Positions 19,054 to 28,368 of a stretch of 64,000 nt of DNA are shown in pieces; positions within the stretch are counted from its first letter, which is position 1; every line of letters begins with the position of its first letter. Source of the stretch: Shewanella colwelliana ATCC 39565 (GTDB lineage: Bacteria > Pseudomonadota > Gammaproteobacteria > Enterobacterales > Shewanellaceae). The notes below the pieces were generated by a model. That model saw only the letters and a list, made by a program, of their open reading frames with translations. It made no database searches and was not told the DNA's origin. The stretch spans positions 1-64,000 of the forward strand of contig NZ_JAEC01000025.1 of NCBI RefSeq assembly GCF_000518705.1, read 5' to 3'. Made by a program: the position numbers and the translations under genes.

Positions 19054-20537
19054 ATGAAGACAATTGTGATCAGTTCGACCAAACATCTAATAATGGCTTT
19101 GACCTATGCCACGCTGGGCATTTTAGCTGCGCTGCTCATTGCAGCGGTTTGGTTTCTAAATAGCAGGACAGATTTAGACATTTGGCACACCATAGATTTA
19201 TCGCATCAATTTAAACACCATGGTAAGGTGATTAACTTCAAGCAATACCTTGATGCTGAAAATCGTCAGTTTGAAGCCCTAGAAGCGCAAATTTATCAAG
19301 CCACTGCCAAACTGCCTCATCAAACATTAAACCGTTATTTCCATGGTAGTTATTCCGACCCCAACAAATGGTCTCAAGACTGGAATCGCAGTTTTGAATG
19401 GCCGTTAGACGATGCCCCTTTGGTGTCCTGCTGCTTCACGGCATGTCTGACTCTCCTTATGCGCTATCTCATTTTGCCAACCATTATAAAGGCCGCGCTC
19501 ATGTGCTGGGGTTACGATTGCCAGGTCATGGCACCATTCCCTCGGGGTTGGTTAATCTGACATGGCAGGATATGGCCGCCGCAGTTGCATTGGCAACTGA
19601 GCATCTTTCGCAGCAATTGGGTGATAAGCCTATTTATGTTGTTGCTTTTTCAACTGGTGCTGCATTAGCACTGAACCATGAGCTCGAAGCCATTAATCGT
19701 GGCAAACAGCCTGCTTATCAAGGGCTAGTTTTTCTTTCACCAGCCATAGGTTTACCGCCAGTTGCGGCTGGGGCCAAATGGCAAGATAGATTAGGGCAGG
19801 TGCTGGGGCTCGATAAGCTGAGTTGGAATACGATTCAGACCGAATATGACCCGTTTAAATATAATTCCTTTGCTGTGAACGCTGGAGATGTGGTGTATCA
19901 GCTCGCCATTGAGAATCAACGGCTGCTAAGTTTGTTGACTGCTAACCAACTCGGCCTGCTTGGGGATATTTTGACTTTTCAGTCTATTGTTGATGATACC
20001 GTCTCAACCACAGCCGTGTTACAAGGCTTATATCAGCGATTACCTAAAAAATCGCATCAGTTAGTCTTGTTTGATATTAATCGACTTAAGGTGAATATGG
20101 CGTTGGTTGAGAGAGATCCTAGACAGCGTATTCAGCCCTATCTCGATTCACCGTTGAATCAATTTGAGCTCACGGTGGTCGAAAACGGGCTGAATCAATG
20201 GGATCAAAGTCAGGTGAGTGCCGCCGTTGTTGCCAATGATTACCTAGGCAATGCCTTATTGCGCACGACACCAATTAACATTGCCTGGCCACGAGGCGTC
20301 TATTCATTATCTCATGTCGCGCTGCCCTATCCTGAACATGACAGTCTTTATGGGTTACAACGTAATGATGTCGTTGAGCGAGTGCGCATCGGTGCTGCGG
20401 CCAGCCGCGGAGAGCGGGGGGTATTAGGTGTCAGCGCCGCAGAGATGTTGAGGCAGAAATGGAATCCATTTTACCCCTACATGATAGATCGACTAGACAC
20501 CTTTATTGACGAGGCTAGCTCAGTTAGTCATCGCTAG
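19054..20537 (+). pseudogene. Alpha/beta hydrolase with a -1 frameshift
   Basis: Two overlapping frames give one protein. Residues 1-121 (frame from 19054) start with a membrane anchor (about 14-36) and run to FEWPLDDAP; the other frame continues with FGVLLLHGMSDSPYALSHF, the oxyanion region of an alpha/beta hydrolase. The nucleophile motif is AFSTGAA, and a histidine near the C-terminus (SHVALPYPEHD) could complete the triad. The break falls on C-CCT-TTG (19416-19422): either one base has been lost, or ribosomes slip back by one there. The reading is otherwise open to 20537 for about 494 residues. The tail overlaps the convergent diguanylate cyclase by 14 bases. Confidence 0.8.
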
Positions 20538-22683
20538 CTAGCTGAGTGCTGATAACCTTGTTTCTGCCAGCTGCTTTCGCCTCATAAAGGTTTAAGTCAG
20601 CCATCTTGAACCAATGGTCAATGTCGTTGATGTAGCCGGCATTACTGATGACGAGGCCGGCACTAATACTGATATTAATACTGAGCGATTCATTGATCAC
20701 TATGGCTGTTTGATGTACCTGCTCTCTAAACTGATCTAGGTGCTGCTCAACCTGCAGTGCATTACATTGCGGCAAAATAATCAGAAACTCTTCGCCACCA
20801 TAACGCGAAACAATATCGGTATCCCGTTTAAAATAGGCTTTCATCAGTTGTGCTAACTTGATGAGTGCGGTGTCGCCAGCCTGATGGCCGTAGGTATCGT
20901 TAATCTGCTTAAAGTGGTCGATGTCAATAATACAAAATGCGAGTGCTGCGTAACTGCGCTTACACATGTCATGAATGGCTGGGAAATGGCTTTCAGCATA
21001 ACGGCGGTTATAGAGTTGCGTAAGTTCATCTTTTTCTGCCAAAGATTGTAATTTCGCATTGGCATCTTCTAATTCAATCGTGCGAATGGCGACTTTCTCC
21101 TCCAGCTCTAATTGATAGCTAATGAGCGCTTGCTTACTCTGTTGAATGCTTTTAGACAGAGTGTAAATTTCCAGTGGCGTGCTGTCATTAAGCTGCTCTA
21201 ATGCTTTGTTATCTTTTCCCCATTGATTAAATTTCTGTGCGATAGACTCTAACGGCTCAGTTAATCGGCCGCTGATCACCTGAATGAGCAACACTGTGGT
21301 GACAAACGCAAATAGTAAGATGGTAAAGGTGGTTAGATATTGTTGCTCTACTTGTTTGATGAGCGGTGAAAATGGCATCACCACATAGAGCGACCAACCA
21401 TTTTTGAGCACATATTTAGAAAAAGCAAACTCGGGGCTAGAACTGCTTAAATTATTAAAGTTAATCATATCTAAGCTTGTTTTATATTTGAGCCCCATTG
21501 TTGACGATTTTAGCGGTGTTAACGGGGTCATCTCGAGTGATTTAGAGGCGTAAATGACCAAATTGTTTTCATCAACCAACACCATAGCTTGTTGCTGATA
21601 TTCTCTATTTCTTTCATCAATTTGTGCAAATTTGGTCAGGTTAAGTGATCCCTCAATAATGCCGCGCGGTTTAATTTGGTCTCGTGAATCATAAAGTGGT
21701 GCACTGATAGCGACAATGGGATCGTTACCAAAGCCACGACCTAAAAAGGCGGGTGAGATAAAACTGAGTTGATTATAAAAGGCTTCTTGAAAATAGTGAC
21801 GATCTTTAATACTCAAGCTTTTATTGTTCAGAGTGTCTTTACCTAGCCGAGATATGGGGCTTGCAGCCGTGATCAAGCCTTGCTCATCAGCAATAAGCAT
21901 CGAGATAAAATAAGGGTAGCTTTGATGTAACTTAGTCAATAAACCTTGCCACTTAGAGATATCTTGATCGGTAAAGCTTAACCATCGGGCTGCATTATCG
22001 ATAGCGCGAATATGATTATCGATAAAAGTTTGCGTGGCTAAACCCAGGTGGTTGGCAGAGTCATCAAGGTTACGTTTAACATCTATTTGCTGTTGATTGA
22101 TTGAGTTGTTATTGAAAATAAAAGCGGAAACCAACAAGGCTAAAGTTAAAATTTGGGTGAAGGTATATGTTAGCTGCGCATTGAAACTTTTGCGTTTTTG
22201 AGTACTAATTCTGTCCTTTATATGCAGGCCGCTAGGTAATAGGGTAACAATAATTGAGCCCAATGCTGTGTACAGCATGCCATTAATCCCTTGTTTAAGG
22301 GTGATGAATGTCATGTAGCTATCAGGTAGTTCAAACACTAGCTCGGCGAAGAGATAAAAAATAGGCATGCCTAACAGTAGCCAGAAGCAAATGTCAGCAA
22401 ATAGCGAATAGACATCACGTCGTCTCGCAAACCCTAACCATATTGCTTCTAATGGGAATAGCAGGAACATATGCCAACTATCCCAAGCGAGATATAACCC
22501 AGCAGAACAGAGTAATGCAGTGATCAGTGCATACCAAGGGCCCGCAAAAATCGCCACAATAACGAAAAATAGGTTACCGATGATCATCTGCTGATTGCCA
22601 AAGAGTGGAATTGGATAAAGGTTAACCAATAGGCCTAAGAGACCTAAAACGAATGCGAATGCTAAGTGCTGCTTATTTATCAA
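20524..22683 (-). CDS. Membrane diguanylate cyclase with sensor domain
   Basis: A 719-aa protein. The first ~190 residues hold several membrane helices resembling a LytS-like 5TM sensor, then a long helix-bounded periplasmic region with Cache-like features (AARWLSF..., ISPAFLGRGFGNDPIVAIS), another membrane helix near 460, a HAMP-like segment and coiled coil, and a C-terminal GGDEF domain. The active-site motif is RYGGEEF near 626-632, an active variant. RDTD just before it fits the RxxD inhibitory site for feedback by c-di-GMP. Start is TTG with TAGGA upstream. A CRP-like site precedes it. Confidence 0.9.
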   Translation of the reverse strand: MINKQHLAFAFVLGLLGLLVNLYPIPLFGNQQMIIGNLFFVIVAIFAGPWYALITALLCSAGLYLAWDSWHMFLLFPLEAIWLGFARRRDVYSLFADICFWLLLGMPIFYLFAELVFELPDSYMTFITLKQGINGMLYTALGSIIVTLLPSGLHIKDRISTQKRKSFNAQLTYTFTQILTLALLVSAFIFNNNSINQQQIDVKRNLDDSANHLGLATQTFIDNHIRAIDNAARWLSFTDQDISKWQGLLTKLHQSYPYFISMLIADEQGLITAASPISRLGKDTLNNKSLSIKDRHYFQEAFYNQLSFISPAFLGRGFGNDPIVAISAPLYDSRDQIKPRGIIEGSLNLTKFAQIDERNREYQQQAMVLVDENNLVIYASKSLEMTPLTPLKSSTMGLKYKTSLDMINFNNLSSSSPEFAFSKYVLKNGWSLYVVMPFSPLIKQVEQQYLTTFTILLFAFVTTVLLIQVISGRLTEPLESIAQKFNQWGKDNKALEQLNDSTPLEIYTLSKSIQQSKQALISYQLELEEKVAIRTIELEDANAKLQSLAEKDELTQLYNRRYAESHFPAIHDMCKRSYAALAFCIIDIDHFKQINDTYGHQAGDTALIKLAQLMKAYFKRDTDIVSRYGGEEFLIILPQCNALQVEQHLDQFREQVHQTAIVINESLSINISISAGLVISNAGYINDIDHWFKMADLNLYEAKAAGRNKVISTQLASDD

Positions 22684-22740: not shown

Positions 22741-23357
22741 ATCCTAGTAACTGGCAGTGTAAGTTAATCGTATGTTAAATGCTAACTAAATGTTTCTAAT
22801 CATTGTTTAGTTTCTACCAACTCACATTAGTGATTAATGAGTTAGGGATAATCTCTATGGCAATTTGCTATATATTAGGCTAACGAGCAGCGTCCAGTGC
22901 GGATGAGTGGTGCAAGGCTAGAGTGACAGGCAGTAACAAAAAAGACACACTAGTTGTCTTTTCCCGGCCGTACTAATTTAATAGATAAGCAGAATGTGAG
23001 GACAATGAGAACGCTTTGGGACTATTGTCAGATGTTCAATATGTAAAATTATAAACGCCACCCAGAAGGGTATCACTTATAGAGGTTTGGTAAGCCCCTA
23101 ATTTAATTGCATGAAAACATGATTGTTTGATGTATATCGGTGACAACACAGACTAAGTCACATATAGTCATTTAAAAACTGCAACTCGTTCAGTAAAAGT
23201 TCAGGTTTTTAGATATATGGATTAAATGCAGAATGGAATCTGAAGATTATATTTTTCTTATTTGCATGATGATTCCCTGACTTTGCTAAGGTCAAAACTA
23301 ACCCTGAGCCGGGGGCGTTTTATGACTGTGATGGCGTTATTTTTGGCGAAATATAAT
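22741..23357. other. Gene-poor left flank of the accessory island
   Basis: No convincing gene on either strand. It contains a hairpin with T-run (AAAAGACA/TGTCTTTT at 22940-22962) that could terminate a leftward or rightward transcript. The tract is AT-rich around 23100-23260, where the promoter of the island genes should lie. No direct repeat of the tRNA-Pro 3' end was found here. Confidence 0.5.
22940..22966 (+). terminator. Terminator-like hairpin in the island flank
   Basis: Stem AAAAGACA/TGTCTTTT with a 7-base loop (CACTAGT). Nothing recognisable lies upstream that it would terminate, so it may end a small RNA or an eroded gene. Confidence 0.45.
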
Positions 23358-24479
23358 ATGAAACAAATCTTAGTTGCTGTAACGGGGGCAAGCCCTCAAG
23401 TACTAACTGAAACCTTGTATGCATTGCACATACAAGGTAAACCGACGCCTGATGAAGTCTTTGTGATCACCACTAAAAGTTCCAAACAGATGTTGGTAGA
23501 GGGATTGTTTGAGCAAGGGCATTGGCTGCGGTTAATTGAAGACTACTCACTACCGCCCATCACATTTTCTGAATCAAATATCTGGGTCATTAGTGACGAG
23601 CAAGGCAATGAGCTAGAGGATGCCAAGAGGGAAGAAGATCAGTCTACAATGGCAGATTTTATCACCCGTAAGATAGCCATGCTAACAGCTGACACTAACT
23701 GTGCTATTCATGCATCTATTGCAGGAGGCCGTAAAACCATGGCCTTCTATATGGGGTATGCCATGTCGCTCTATGGTCGTGAACAAGATGCCTTGAGTCA
23801 TGTGTTCGTCGACGATGAATATGAGTTTGTTAAAAATTTTTATTATCCAACGCTTCAAGATAACTGGATTGAGGGAAAAACGGCTGGCAGCCGAGTCAAT
23901 ACCAAAGATGCCCAAGTTACCCTTGCTGAGATCCCGTTTGTACGCATGCGCAAGCAGTTTGAATCGGACCTGTTAAATCAACTTGAAGACAGTTCTTTCT
24001 CTAAAACTGTTGCGCTAATGAATGCTGCTAGCCAGCCATTGGCAGTCTCTATCAATTTGAAAACAAAAAAGCTGAGTGTTTTAGGGGTTGATATAAAGCT
24101 CTCAGCCAAGCTGTTAGCCCTCTACCTGTTTATGCTCTCACAACCTCAGCGGCAAATTAAAGTTGGTTCTGGGTTCATCAAAAATACCGAATTTACTAAA
24201 CAGTACCTAAATCACTTCAATCAAATGAATGGCGATATACGTGTTTACAACACCTTTGGTTTAGAAGACGAGGGCGATTGGGTTCGCGGTCAGTTTGATA
24301 ACTTACAGCCTATGACGGCAAAGTTCATTCAAGAGGTACTTAGTCAGCTCCATAAGAAGCTGATGCACCACTTACCAAGTGACGTGGTAGATAAAATAAA
24401 AGTGCACTCAGATGGAGTAAAGGGCGGAGCTACTTACTCAGTATGCAATGAGCTTACTGTCGATGTGATTCTTCCGTAA
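23358..24479 (+). CDS. CARF/ring-nuclease-like protein, Cas NE0113 family
   Basis: A ~373-aa protein. Its N-terminal ~190 residues match the CRISPR-associated NE0113 (TIGR02584) family: KQILVAVTGASPQVLTETLYAL at the start, then HASIAGGRKTMAFYMGYAM near 116-134 and LYGREQDALSHVFVDDE. Families of this kind have a CARF-like Rossmann fold that binds, and in ring nucleases cleaves, cyclic oligoadenylates. The C-terminal half (about 220-373) is probably a winged-helix or helical output domain. I chose the ATG at 23358 because homology begins there; in-frame TTG 23262 and ATG 23322 lie upstream. No cas gene or CRISPR array is in the window. Confidence 0.85.
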   Translation: MKQILVAVTGASPQVLTETLYALHIQGKPTPDEVFVITTKSSKQMLVEGLFEQGHWLRLIEDYSLPPITFSESNIWVISDEQGNELEDAKREEDQSTMADFITRKIAMLTADTNCAIHASIAGGRKTMAFYMGYAMSLYGREQDALSHVFVDDEYEFVKNFYYPTLQDNWIEGKTAGSRVNTKDAQVTLAEIPFVRMRKQFESDLLNQLEDSSFSKTVALMNAASQPLAVSINLKTKKLSVLGVDIKLSAKLLALYLFMLSQPQRQIKVGSGFIKNTEFTKQYLNHFNQMNGDIRVYNTFGLEDEGDWVRGQFDNLQPMTAKFIQEVLSQLHKKLMHHLPSDVVDKIKVHSDGVKGGATYSVCNELTVDVILP

Positions 24480-24483
24480 CGAT

Positions 24484-24495
24484 TGTAAGCTTATG
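24484..24495 (+). repeat. Direct repeat, left copy (GTAAGCTTATGA)
   Basis: GATTGTAAGCTTATGA at 24480-24495 matches GATCGTAAGCTTATGA at 24838-24853 with one difference. The right copy is the last codons of the 81-aa gene (I-V-S-L-stop). The left copy can be read the same way, so it looks like a relic of a second copy of that gene's end, placed directly after the CARF gene. Confidence 0.6.
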
Positions 24496-24607
24496 AACAC
24501 CACTCTAGCTCCGGTTTGGCTATGATGGTTTCATCAATGAATAAGAGCTTGTGTAAACCATTAGGTTCGCTTTTTTTTAGCATTAAGCTCCGCAGCTTGG
24601 AATAGAT

Positions 24608-24853
24608 ATGGACAATTTTGTTTGGAATGATTTTGGCACACTCTCTGCGGTTGATAAGACCGACAAGCTCGTCACGGTGACTAACTCCGACGGGGAGGCG
24701 AGAAAAATGAGCGTTGCTAAGTACAAAGAGAGTGCGTTGGCCGTACACCAAAAGGCGCAGTCGTTAATCGGCAAGCAAGTGACAATTAGAACCAGTCAAA
24801 ATACAGCCGACTGGAGCACACAGGTGTGGTTTAGCGAGATCGTAAGCTTATGA
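24608..24853 (+). CDS. 81-aa island protein of unknown function
   Basis: An 81-aa protein that I do not recognise. It reads as a small beta-barrel: strands around GTLSAVDKTDKLVTVTN and KQVTIRTSQ, with a helix VAKYKESALAVHQKAQSLI between them, and a C-terminal strand QVWFSEIVSL. This order would suit an OB- or SH3-like domain, which is inference. It does not end in the diglycine of a ubiquitin-like protein, although an MPN-domain protein follows. The ribosome site is weak (TTGGAATAG). It lies between two direct repeats. Confidence 0.6.
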   Translation: MDNFVWNDFGTLSAVDKTDKLVTVTNSDGEARKMSVAKYKESALAVHQKAQSLIGKQVTIRTSQNTADWSTQVWFSEIVSL

Positions 24854-24885
24854 TAACTAGTAATCTGTTCTTACGTTACTAGTTA
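24854..24885. repeat. Perfect 10-bp inverted repeat in the island
   Basis: TAACTAGTAA and TTACTAGTTA flank a 12-base loop, directly after the stop of the 81-aa gene and 58 bases before the MPN gene. There is no T-run. It could be an operator, or a hairpin that tunes expression between the two parts of the operon. Confidence 0.6.
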
Positions 24886-24942
24886 AACTATTAAACTGAC
24901 AGGTTGTAACACCCAAAATTGATAATCCTGGGAGAGGGAATA

Positions 24943-25719
24943 ATGTCGAAAATTGAAGTTAGTAAGAGTGTTCTGTTTGAAATGATCATGGCGACCTATG
25001 AGGCCTATGCCGTTAAGCATGATGGCAAGCATATCGTCGCAATAGAAACTTACGGAACACTATGGGGGACTTTGAAAGGACGTAGAGGCTTTAACTGTAG
25101 TTTGGAACACTTCTCGGTTGAGTCTTCAGCCCGCCGACAAAGGGGCTGTGTGGAAGCTTTAACTATGTCCCGTCAAATTAAAGATGAAATAGCCGACGTT
25201 TTTGGTGAGGGATACCAATATTTAGGCTCGTTTCATTCCCACCCTTACATTAAGTCAGAGGTCGCTACTGCTAGCGAGTTACGTAAAGAACGATTATTCG
25301 ACTTCAGTGATGGCGATCATAAGAGTGAATTCGGTGAGAGTTTTGAGGTTAATGGTAAACAGTATTCCTTAGCGTTGGTGATGACCATCTTTTCGATGGA
25401 CAGAGCTGACACGAGTAAAGACTTTAAAGTAGAGCCTAATCTATATGAGTTTTCTTTGGGCAACGTTAAGCTGTGGTTAAAGGCGCAAGTCTTTGAACAT
25501 AAAGCTGAATCAGAACTATCAGATAGTGATAAAGACGAGATGGAGATGTACAAGCTTAAGTTAGATGAGCTTGAGTATGATGACCCACAAGAGTTAATAC
25601 CTGTGCCAATTGCAACAGAGCTCTGTTGTGATTTTCTTGATAATTTTGGTACCAGCTTCGAGAAGTTTGGCCGCTTGGACATTAGCTCAAGAAAAGCTCG
25701 ATATATGAGCCGTAAGTAG
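24943..25719 (+). CDS. MPN/JAB-domain protein with atypical metal motif
   Basis: A 258-aa protein. The first ~150 residues have the outline of an MPN/JAB metalloprotease: a glutamate in IETYGTLWG (E35), and GSFHSHPY with H98 and H100. The usual continuation, seven residues then S-x-x-D, is not present; SELRKE comes after ten residues and an aspartate is missing at the expected place. Activity is therefore uncertain. The C-terminal part is acidic and helical. The start is set by GGAGAGGG four bases before the ATG at 24943. Bacterial JAB proteins process ubiquitin-like modifiers or act with E1/E2 proteins in CBASS and Bil systems, but no E1 or E2 is seen here. Confidence 0.75.
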   Translation: MSKIEVSKSVLFEMIMATYEAYAVKHDGKHIVAIETYGTLWGTLKGRRGFNCSLEHFSVESSARRQRGCVEALTMSRQIKDEIADVFGEGYQYLGSFHSHPYIKSEVATASELRKERLFDFSDGDHKSEFGESFEVNGKQYSLALVMTIFSMDRADTSKDFKVEPNLYEFSLGNVKLWLKAQVFEHKAESELSDSDKDEMEMYKLKLDELEYDDPQELIPVPIATELCCDFLDNFGTSFEKFGRLDISSRKARYMSRK

Positions 25720-25742
25720 TTATCCGTGAGAGGGGGATTACT

Positions 25743-26225
25743 GTGATTAAACAAAAAGTGAAACACCTTAAACTGAAAGGTGACTCCCTAGAAGAGGAGG
25801 TAAACAATTTTGTCGGTGCGCATACGGATCACCGGAGTTTATATATTGAAGGGATAAAGGCTGTTAGTTCAGGCTTGGATTCATTGTTCGAATACTTTGA
25901 AAAACGCGAAGTATATGTTTTTAGTCGATTCCCTGCGGTTAAGTTGCTTCAAGCTTTTGAAGAGTTTGAAGATCTGTTTTTCGATGGACTTGAAGAGATA
26001 GCTAAACCTCTAGAGAAAGGTTCAGTTGAGCAGACTCAGCTGCTTGATTCTGGTGGTTTCATCGATGCGATTCACTGTGGCGAATTTGAAGCTGTATTTA
26101 CTGTTGACTATCAAAGTGGTGTTGATAGTGAGAGCGATAAGGCTGGTCTAAATACTTCGCTGCAATCGATAGATAGAGGATTCAAGCAGTTGCTTATGGC
26201 TCAAGGTTACTATGAGACTTATTAA
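25743..26225 (+). CDS. 160-aa island protein of unknown function
   Basis: A 160-aa acidic, mostly helical protein that I do not recognise; the helices around LDSLFEYFEKREVYVFSRF and KLLQAFEEFEDLFFDGLEE are amphipathic. No signal peptide or membrane segment is seen. It starts with GTG 23 bases after the MPN gene, behind a strong ribosome site (GAGAGGGGG), so the two are surely co-transcribed. Its role could be structural or as a partner of the MPN protein. Confidence 0.7.
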   Translation: MIKQKVKHLKLKGDSLEEEVNNFVGAHTDHRSLYIEGIKAVSSGLDSLFEYFEKREVYVFSRFPAVKLLQAFEEFEDLFFDGLEEIAKPLEKGSVEQTQLLDSGGFIDAIHCGEFEAVFTVDYQSGVDSESDKAGLNTSLQSIDRGFKQLLMAQGYYETY

Positions 26226-26311
26226 GAGTAGAAGTTATTGCTCATAAGGTTCGTTTTAAAATAGTCACATTTTTGTTGTTTTACATCACTATTTCTGGAG
26301 AAGGGAAGCCC

Positions 26312-27064
26312 ATGTTCGAAGAAGAGTTATCCGAAGTAATAAAATACCTATCAGGTCACGAGTTTGAAGTATGTTGCAGTTTGGATGTTGATGAGTTTCT
26401 TAAGCGATGTATTGAGGAAATAGATCATAGTATAACCCAGCAAACTCCGGTTCAATTAGCTCTTAGCTCTTTCGGGCAATTCCAGGTTAGTCCGATGAAA
26501 ACCATTAATGGCGCTAAAGTTATCTATGACTCAGAGACTTATTGCTATGACCAGGCTGATACGCTAGCTCAACTACATAGTATAAAATCGCAGCAGCCCA
26601 GAGTGTCCTGTGCAGAAAAGTGGTTTGAGATTAACAAGTTATTTAATCAACCCATTGTCTTCGGGTTGGAAAAAGTGGTTGATAGTTATCCTGCTGCACA
26701 GCATTACCATTATCGAATGACCGGGCAACTCGCCGGAATTTTAGATCGTGGCTCCCTACGTAAAGACGGACTTGTTGAACAGCCAAGTTTTGGAAATGAT
26801 TCTCACTGGCTCACCTACCGTTCAACAAACGATTATTTGTCATCTTATTTCGAAGAAGTTTCGCCAGAAATCGAACCTGCTCTCATTAAGATCATCGAGT
26901 CTTCTGAAGGGTTACCGCAGGCCTGGTCGAAACTTAACAATATGGTGAAAATGAATAGTAAGTTGGGTATTAAAACCAGAATTTTACTTGGGAAGGTCAA
27001 TGCGTATCAAATCCGTCGCTTAATGGATCGCTTTGAAATTGATTTTCTCGAAGATGAAGACTAG
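26312..27064 (+). CDS. 250-aa island protein of unknown function
   Basis: A 250-aa soluble protein, not recognised. The middle segment HYHYRMTGQLAGILDRGSL, then GNDSHWLTYRST about 20 residues later, has the spacing seen in some ADP-ribosyltransferase-fold and RES-type toxins (a histidine/arginine strand, 'G-I-L-x-x-G-x-L', then a W-L-T strand). This likeness is weak. The C-terminus is acidic (FEIDFLEDED). I chose the ATG at 26312 because GGAGAAGGG stands in front of it; an upstream in-frame TTG at 26273 has no such site. Same strand and spacing as the other island genes. Confidence 0.7.
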   Translation: MFEEELSEVIKYLSGHEFEVCCSLDVDEFLKRCIEEIDHSITQQTPVQLALSSFGQFQVSPMKTINGAKVIYDSETYCYDQADTLAQLHSIKSQQPRVSCAEKWFEINKLFNQPIVFGLEKVVDSYPAAQHYHYRMTGQLAGILDRGSLRKDGLVEQPSFGNDSHWLTYRSTNDYLSSYFEEVSPEIEPALIKIIESSEGLPQAWSKLNNMVKMNSKLGIKTRILLGKVNAYQIRRLMDRFEIDFLEDED

Positions 27065-27130
27065 TTAAAGTTTGCGATTCAGTATTTAACGTGTTGTTGG
27101 AGTAAACTTTTTAACTTGAGGTAAGCAGAT

Positions 27131-27937
27131 TTGATTAACATTAGTAATGAAGTTATCTGTACAGAAGATGGCATCATCAAGGCTGTTTGTACCGGGCAAT
27201 ACTCAAAAGAAGTTTGTCTTGGTATAACAAATAGAGTGTTTGGTGTTGATTGGTGGAGTATGGAAGGCGAGACTTCATCTGTATCTGGTTTAACTGAAAA
27301 TCTTAAAGACACGGACTTGCTGCTAATTATTTCTGACTTTTCGGATGAGTCTGAGTTAAACAGCTGCTTTATGCTAAACCAAATCGCTGGTGAGCTTGGT
27401 GTGTTGGTGATGGTTTTTGCCCTGAATTGCAATACACAACACCTAAATAGTAACTGTACCCGGGTATCGCAATTAGCCACAACGGCTAACATTTTTATTA
27501 TTGAAGCTGAACTTTCCATCGAGCTATCAAATGAAGGTAACGAGCTTTCCTCTCAAGCTGACAACTTACAATGGTCCATGAAGGCTTTGATAGAGCTATT
27601 TACTAAAGCGTCGTTTGTTGGAGTCGACTTCGCTGATGTGAAGTGTGCTTTTAATAGAAAAGGGCTGTATCAATTTTATTGGGCCTCTGCTTATGGCCAT
27701 AATGCTACTCAAGTCGCTCATGCTCATTTATCTAAATTACTTCAAGTGGAATCTAAGGAGCATAAGAGCGTGGTAGTGAGTGTTTTTTGTGATTTGGATT
27801 ACTCTCTGCAAGACTTTCACTATATCAGTAGTGAGATAGGGTCGACTTTTTCAAATGACTCTTACTTTGTATGTGCCCCGATAGTTAACCCTCAGTTTTC
27901 TGAAAAAGTAGTGATTAGTGCATGCATCTCTGCTTAG
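27131..27937 (+). CDS. Diverged FtsZ-fold protein without GTPase signature
   Basis: A 268-aa protein whose order of motifs follows FtsZ. Residues 58-100 (NLKDTDLLLIISDF..., IAGELGVLVMVFAL) match FtsZ 'ALEGADMVFIAAGMGGGTGTG...VAKDLGILTVAVV', but the GGGTGTG loop is replaced by SDESELNS at 71-78. Residues 146-204 match the central helix and T7 loop: LIELFTKASFVGVDFADV keeps both T7 aspartates (D166, D169), while the asparagine before them is G164. Residues 211-266 match the C-terminal sheet. The N-terminal ~50 residues are too short to hold the glycine-rich T1 loop. The protein probably cannot bind GTP. The start is TTG with GAGGTAAG upstream. Confidence 0.75.
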   Translation: MINISNEVICTEDGIIKAVCTGQYSKEVCLGITNRVFGVDWWSMEGETSSVSGLTENLKDTDLLLIISDFSDESELNSCFMLNQIAGELGVLVMVFALNCNTQHLNSNCTRVSQLATTANIFIIEAELSIELSNEGNELSSQADNLQWSMKALIELFTKASFVGVDFADVKCAFNRKGLYQFYWASAYGHNATQVAHAHLSKLLQVESKEHKSVVVSVFCDLDYSLQDFHYISSEIGSTFSNDSYFVCAPIVNPQFSEKVVISACISA

Positions 27938-28038: not shown

Positions 28039-28068
28039 TGTAGTGGTCAATATTTATTGACCACTACA
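28039..28068. repeat. 30-base palindrome
   Basis: TGTAGTGGTCAATA is followed after two bases by its exact complement TATTGACCACTACA. About 100 bases past the last island gene, it could end the operon transcript, although there is no T-run, or be the tip of a small mobile element. Confidence 0.85.
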
Positions 28069-28291: not shown

Positions 28292-28368
28292 TGGTCGGTA
28301 TGAGAGGATTCGAACCTCCGACCCCTGACACCCCATGACAGTGCGCTACCGGGCTGCGCTACATACCG
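28292..28368 (-). tRNA. proL: tRNA-Pro (GGG)
   Basis: A 77-nt cloverleaf with CCA encoded. The anticodon loop is ATGGGGT, anticodon GGG, in the stem CTGTC/GTCAG with the same T-T mismatch as E. coli proL. It sits next to yejM, as in E. coli. The island ends directly at its 3' side, the usual target for tRNA-specific integrases. Confidence 0.96.

Follow-up and report, generated by a model that had tools for sequence, protein, structure and literature searches.

A CARF protein of the NE0113 family, encoded by Shewanella colwelliana ATCC 39565, belongs to a separate clade of that family, and the best reading of this clade is that it branched off from a stock linked to type III CRISPR and is today found with other defence modules. 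The gene lies at 23358-24479 on the forward strand of the 64,000-nucleotide stretch analysed here (the window, bases 1-64000 of an 82 kb contig; the genome is 4.58 Mb in 58 contigs and is given as 100% complete), and it is the first of six genes found in the same order in another Shewanella genome. Membership of the family, the separate clade, the absence of type III RAMPs from 10 of 11 searchable genomes, conserved pocket residues and six genes that move together are the observations on which we tentatively regard the protein as an NE0113-type nucleotide sensor or regulator emancipated from CRISPR and heading a transferable, predicted growth-arrest cassette, a reading that is plausible but still short of probable.

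The CARF reading frame is open throughout and encodes 373 residues from its ATG, with a further in-frame TTG upstream at 23262. The coordinates and motifs given in the initial annotation are correct, with IAGGRKTM at residues 121-128 and LYGREQDALSHVFVDDE at residues 138-154. Its assignment of the protein to the NE0113 family is borne out by TIGR02584 (223.3 bits against a curated cut-off of 80.65), by PF09623 (143.7 bits, cut-off 23), which is the sole Pfam match of the protein up to E 10, and by the PADLOC CARF5--CARF model, which matched residues 1-363 with an E value of 6.5e-130. A structure model built from a two-row alignment of the window protein and its relative at locus L062, in the other Shewanella genome, has a mean pLDDT of 47.5 and is usable for the N-terminal CARF part only. 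This part matched Cad1-CARF and the ring nucleases Sis0455 and Sso2081, with Z of about 11 to 14 over 125 to 143 residues, and Csa3 was also among the structural matches. Residues S12, R125 and K126 correspond to Ser11, Arg105 and Lys106 of Sso2081, in which the pocket serine, arginine and lysine bind or cut cA4 (PMC10018336). S12 is present in 13 of the 14 clade members and R125 and K126 in all 14, and the retention of these residues suggests that the likely ligand is a cyclic nucleotide or else RNA ending in a cyclic phosphate. The description "ring-nuclease-like" is thus backed by the CARF fold of the model and by the pocket residues, cleavage of cA4 being a prediction.

NE0113 proteins are typically encoded with type III cas genes, but the whole genome gave no match to Cas1 and none to the type III RAMPs (PF03787). 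The initial annotation had seen no CRISPR system around the gene; this absence extends to the entire genome for Cas1, RAMPs and true Cas10, and within the window there are no CRISPR-like repeats (direct repeats of at least 23 nt with copies no more than 400 nt apart) except for one pair at 1-339. That pair, at the contig end, consists of two 156-nt direct repeats, 98% identical and 183 nt from start to start, and is unrelated to CRISPR. A hidden Cas10 was considered and rejected: all five matches, weak ones, to the Cas10-palm model PF22335 are GGDEF proteins, or diguanylate cyclases, one being the GGDEF gene at 20524-22683 and the other four carrying GGEEF. PF22335 cannot distinguish a divergent Cas10 from GGDEF proteins, since its matches beside RAMPs in two other genomes (G076 and G151) reach only 33-34 bits, and RAMPs were therefore taken as the marker of type III systems. 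The genome-wide search for cas10 or CD-NTase genes proposed in the initial annotation thus yielded no true Cas10 and a single CD-NTase, a SMODS match of 40.1 bits on a separate contig, C24; the CARF operon contains none, whereas a CBASS effector would be expected to share its operon with one. On C24, the CD-NTase gene is followed by E1-like, JAB and HNH-containing genes, the latter three read by eye, and this locus (L042:9999-14802) is a probable type II CBASS.

CARF relatives were found, the window's own genome included, in 19 of 295 genomes of the order, four of 129 of the genus and, by a profile search, 32 of 369 of the class. From the 31 class genomes matched besides the window's own, 29 contributed to a tree of 49 proteins; G411 and G589, with matches of about 40 positions, were left out, as were G670, the second CARF of G758 and the second matches in G440, G657, G597, G646 and G492. 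Three of the 19 order genomes (G202, G259 and G110) are also off the tree, being represented by fragments or yielding no full frame. Decayed copies occur in the order genomes G259 and G110, whose matches have internal stops (L019-L021), and a 91-residue remnant is present in Pseudoalteromonas (L054:6620-6895). The window protein falls in a clade of 14 members (support 100/100, branch 1.04), made up of itself, nine relatives from the order, the L062 protein and three plasmid copies, which are labelled "csm6" in RefSeq. The RAMP model was without a match in 10 of the 11 searchable clade genomes, the positive one being that of L062, and the three plasmid copies gave no RAMP match in a search that covered the plasmid record only. 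Outside the clade, 31 of 35 tree rows stem from genomes with RAMPs. The RAMP-negative rows there are L126, L135 and L140, together with L032, which lies beside Cas1 in a genome that is 75% complete, so that absence of RAMPs is not unique to the clade. Cas1 was matched in one of 10 clade genomes (G207, 39.2 bits). The initial annotation had suggested a response to cyclic oligoadenylate made elsewhere, for which the CD-NTase on C24 is a candidate source in the window's genome, but a SMODS CD-NTase was found in two of 10 clade genomes only, and such enzymes cannot therefore serve as the general signal source of the clade. In the L062 genome (G768, with the same matches as G758), the RAMPs are found on a different contig, where a second NE0113 protein is encoded 2.7 kb away; this protein shares 36% identity with that of the window and is also matched by the PADLOC CARF5--CARF model. 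Because this type III locus has an NE0113 protein of its own, the clade protein in that genome is an addition. Nevertheless, it is the only other genome with the cassette, and cyclic oligoadenylate (cOA) from its type III system could reach the clade CARF protein.

For six of the 14 clade members, genes of Zorya II, Druantia III or type I restriction were identified nearby by PADLOC, directly or through shared protein clusters. ZorA2, ZorB2 and ZorE2 of Zorya type II were called by PADLOC in L027, with the same protein clusters in L030 and L031; Druantia type III is represented by DruE3 in L025 (same cluster in L026) and by DruH3 in L030; and type I restriction by REase_I in L031, with the same cluster in L029. 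In addition, type I restriction and WYL genes were read by eye beside the clade CARF gene of L024. Other neighbours are a VWA/PP2C/kinase set with an SF1-type helicase in L023, a HerA-like ATPase in L050 and insertion sequences on the flanks in L049. Two distant clade genes adjoin a metallophosphoesterase and an ADP-ribosylglycohydrolase, fused in L028 (5165-8191) and encoded separately in L051 (11127-13771). The neighbours vary, and no partner recurs across all members. Zorya II and Druantia III are a known pairing in islands (PMC12458937), and their nearness to clade CARF genes may thus reflect the sharing of islands and not function. A further family, c4, for which the L024 copy has no Pfam match, occurs at or near clade CARF genes in L024 (7685-8761), L027 (10571-11563) and L023 (5941-6906), with fragments in L031 and L039.

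The cassette spans 23102-27937 on the forward strand, with the CARF gene first and five genes behind it (24608-27937) separated by short gaps. It begins with a leader (23102-23357) shared with L062 and with L023, in a third genome; blastn homology to both starts at 23102, and the three leaders were aligned. Behind the CARF gene lie P0006 (24608-24853), an 81-residue protein whose counterpart in this position of L062 is 91% identical; P0005 (24943-25719), a JAB-type protein with JAMM metal-binding residues; P0004 (25743-26225, 160 residues, 87% identical in L062); P0003 (26312-27064, 250 residues, 70% identical in L062); and P0002 (27131-27937), a 268-residue FtsZ-like protein. P0006, P0004 and P0003 match no Pfam family above cut-off, and the P0006-like sequence of L052 is part of a 268-residue frame with a 68% match. 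The five same-strand genes pointed out in the initial annotation are therefore present, and all six genes recur together in L062, one of 53 JAB loci obtained from a profile scan of genome contigs. Between window and L062, identity from the CARF protein to the FtsZ-like protein is 96, 91, 96, 87, 70 and about 52%. Homology at the DNA level covers 23102 to 27453 and, at the protein level, continues until the last gene ends; neither flank has a match. For the same pair of genomes, dN/dS is 0.075 for the CARF gene, 0.155 for the 81-residue gene, 0.046 for the JAB gene, 0.366 for P0004, 0.248 for P0003 and 0.324 for P0002. L023 shares only the CARF gene and its leader (23102-24541, 80.4% identity), which together with the six-gene match of L062 indicates a movable CARF unit inside a movable cassette. 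Relatives of the other genes are sparse: P0003 was found in the window's own genome only among 295 order genomes, and P0005 likewise among 274 class genomes; plasmids gave no match for P0002 or P0003, E. coli genomes gave no megablast match, and JAB and CARF scans of viral contigs confirmed no relative. A 16-nt direct repeat (15 of 16 positions identical; 24481-24496 and 24838-24853) frames the 81-residue gene just behind the CARF gene and is a possible module junction.

The JAMM residues of P0005 (E35, H98, H100, S122 and D125, in the arrangement E / HxH / SxxD) are invariant in all five aligned relatives. The PADLOC JAB model matched the protein at E 2.8e-4, Pfam gave no match at E 0.001, and the relative P0011 scored 12.6 bits against Prok-JAB, for which the cut-off is 25. 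P0002 matched the NCBIfam FtsZ model TIGR00065 at E 2e-12 with 47.1 bits, below the cut-off of 295.2, and solved FtsZ structures at 1.6e-5 in phmmer. The best 50 Foldseek rows for a low-confidence model of it (pLDDT 41.5, from a two-row alignment) were all FtsZ. Alignment with FtsZ leaves out its first 50 residues, and its C-terminal end is without an FtsZ-type tail peptide. The GTP-binding signature GGGTGTG is missing from both alleles, the place being taken by FSDESELN in the alignment to 4u39, and for this reason the protein is named FtsZ-like and not FtsZ. Acidic residues are kept at the place of the T7 loop, which reads DFADV in P0002 and DFTDV in the L062 allele. The two alleles are identical at 85 of 99 residues in the first 100 alignment columns and at 52 of 169 beyond, a pattern that looks like allele exchange or rapid change.

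A Marinomonas plasmid carries a JAB relative of 42% identity and no CARF gene. Behind the JAB gene come two unknown genes, one PcfJ-like gene and an FtsZ-like gene. The FtsZ-like protein of this plasmid keeps the GTP signature, reads DFAHF at the T7 place and has no pairwise BLAST similarity to P0002, suggesting that the two may have joined JAB genes independently. A general pairing of JAB and FtsZ-like genes was considered and is not upheld, as no FtsZ-like gene was seen in 51 of the 53 JAB loci. Such genes were counted in L062 and L085 only (BLAST at 1e-3 on called frames, with flanks of up to 9 kb and often shorter), and a CARF gene occurs in one of the 53. The association of JAB and FtsZ-like genes is no more than suggestive.

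The initial annotation had also proposed that the CARF protein might use its C-terminal domain to regulate the five genes that follow. The part of this proposal concerning the genes is consistent with their travelling with the CARF gene. As for the domain, the C-terminal 150 or so residues are conserved within the clade and form strands followed by helices, which by eye resemble a winged helix in a part of the model with pLDDT below 50, but neither Pfam nor PDB profile searches gave a match in support of DNA binding or a winged helix. VIA-align searches with the CARF model were dominated by matches of the CARF domain, gave no separate match for the C-terminal domain and are uninformative on its fold. 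No AAA+ domain was found in the protein by Pfam, and its architecture is thus distinct from the CARF-AAA+-HTH arrangement of RtcR. Upstream, the leader contains GTTCAG-N5-GTTCAG at 23188-23204, exact in the window and L023 and with one mismatch in L062; we take this pair, with its 11-bp spacing, to resemble the sites of OmpR-type regulators. With up to two mismatches allowed, the pattern has three matches in the window against 4.5 expected by chance, and is not rarer than chance. No element common to the other clade members was found upstream of their CARF genes.

The sequence of events that we envisage for the sensor/regulator reading would begin on infection, when the CARF dimer would bind either a cyclic nucleotide or the cyclic phosphate at an RNA end, and the C-terminal domain of the ligand-bound protein would alter expression of the downstream genes. 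P0005, a predicted JAMM peptidase, would process a cassette or host protein, and P0002, without a GTP site but with the acidic residues of the T7 loop, would cap or poison host FtsZ filaments so that division stops; its growth-arrest role is predicted from its anatomy alone. Ring-nuclease cleavage in the same CARF pocket may then reset the switch. In a more specific version, a CRISPR-free CARF pathway would respond to a nucleotide signal of its own and turn on the JAMM peptidase together with an FtsZ decoy that has no GTP site. The variable C-terminal part of this decoy would engage host FtsZ and halt the division of infected cells, a form of abortive infection in which a defective copy of the division protein serves as the weapon; as a whole, this version is unlikely. 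Against the sensor/regulator reading stand the type III system of the L062 genome, the lack of any profile match for a DNA-binding C-terminal domain, the want of a clade-wide upstream site, the low frequency of CARF (1/53) and FtsZ-like genes (2/53) at JAB loci, and the variable neighbours.

Two rivals are serious, each of them unlikely. The protein could be a stand-alone ring nuclease that degrades cyclic oligonucleotides from other systems, of which the CBASS on C24 may be one here, with the genes behind it forming a separate module. Retention of the pocket residues, the CD-NTase in the same genome and the occurrence of the CARF unit (23102-24541) without the cassette in L023 all favour this, but among 10 clade genomes SMODS CD-NTases were found in two and RAMPs in none, so that there is usually no detected maker of cOA to regulate; moreover, the clade conserves an additional C-terminal domain that is dispensable for cleavage in the compact Sso2081 type. 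Equally, the CARF gene and the genes from JAB to FtsZ-like could be independent passengers of an island, joined by chance before the block moved, with the CARF protein acting alone. The restriction of L023 homology to 23102-24541, the Marinomonas JAB relative, which is accompanied by another FtsZ-like gene but by no CARF gene, the single CARF gene among 53 JAB loci and the possible junction marked by the 16-nt repeat all favour such a history, whereas the preservation of the six-gene block in two genomes between unlike flanks, its genes all pointing the same way and separated by short gaps, argues for a unit.

Activation of an effector function, such as a nuclease, in the C-terminal domain of the CARF protein by its ligand, as in Csm6 and Csx1, is improbable. 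CARF effectors of this kind are common (PMC9704534), and an R-x6-H stretch, which has the spacing of the HEPN motif, occurs in the C-terminal part of five of the 14 clade members; the window protein and eight others, however, have no R-x(4-6)-H in this part, and no Pfam effector domain was found in any of the 14. It follows from the absence of the HEPN motif that the RefSeq name Csm6 is misleading for the window protein. Least probable is a functionless relic of a lost type III system. Decayed CARF copies do exist in the order, as described above, but the low dN/dS against L062 indicates purifying selection, and the clade is old, well supported and intact in its pocket, which together disfavour a relic.

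Several known systems come close. By curated cut-offs and pocket motifs, the window protein is of one family with the type III CARF proteins of TIGR02584 (named "CRISPR-associated ring nuclease Csm6" in RefSeq), from which it differs in its separate clade, in the missing RAMPs and in its neighbours. NE0113 proteins were predicted to be transcription regulators by Makarova and co-workers (PMC4012209). Csa3, with a CARF domain and a winged helix (PMC8699464), shares the CARF fold, the winged helix of the window protein being putative and model-based. CoCoNuT superoperons are headed by RtcR-like and 2xCARF proteins, which are other CARF types (PMC11090510), and resemble the clade in placing a CARF gene outside CRISPR amid type I restriction, Druantia III and similar systems; the window protein differs in being without AAA+ and of another CARF family, and no McrB-type gene of CoCoNuT was seen beside the cassette. 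BrxR proteins are likewise ligand-sensing regulators spread over varied defence systems (PMC9122601), but their sensor is a WYL and not a CARF domain. For another protein, Csx15, a survey devoted to ring nucleases around type III loci reported that 25% of occurrences are in genomes lacking type III (PMC12409355), and FtsZ/tubulin effectors have been described as rare components of other conflict systems (PMC7159879). Among the titles and opening lines of abstracts listed by searches of an open-access library, no description of this CARF clade or of the six-gene cassette was found.

SulA and MciZ are inhibitors of FtsZ that block assembly of the Z-ring. The outcome predicted for P0002 is the same, but P0002 is itself FtsZ-like, and an FtsZ-like gene without a GTP site behind a CARF gene raises cell division as a possible target. 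More broadly, if a single CARF clade has left type III systems and lives amid Zorya, Druantia and restriction genes, CARF signalling would extend past Cas10, and the question arises of which nucleotide is sensed in genomes that have no Cas10 and in most cases no detected CD-NTase. As NE0113 proteins are named as CRISPR parts, surveys may tally members of the clade as type III ancillaries.

Behind the cassette, a perfect 14-bp inverted repeat (28039-28068) is followed by a tRNA-Pro gene (28292-28368), and the two possibly mark the edge of an island. Separately, a WYL gene directly followed by an FtsZ-like gene occurs in five Pseudoalteromonas megaplasmid records (L054, L056, L057, L058 and L059); viperin, McrBC or restriction-type genes are close by in three of the five. 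Three of these FtsZ-like proteins were examined, and they keep both the GTP signature and the FtsZ-type tail, and the WYL-FtsZ-like pair is a candidate defence pair.
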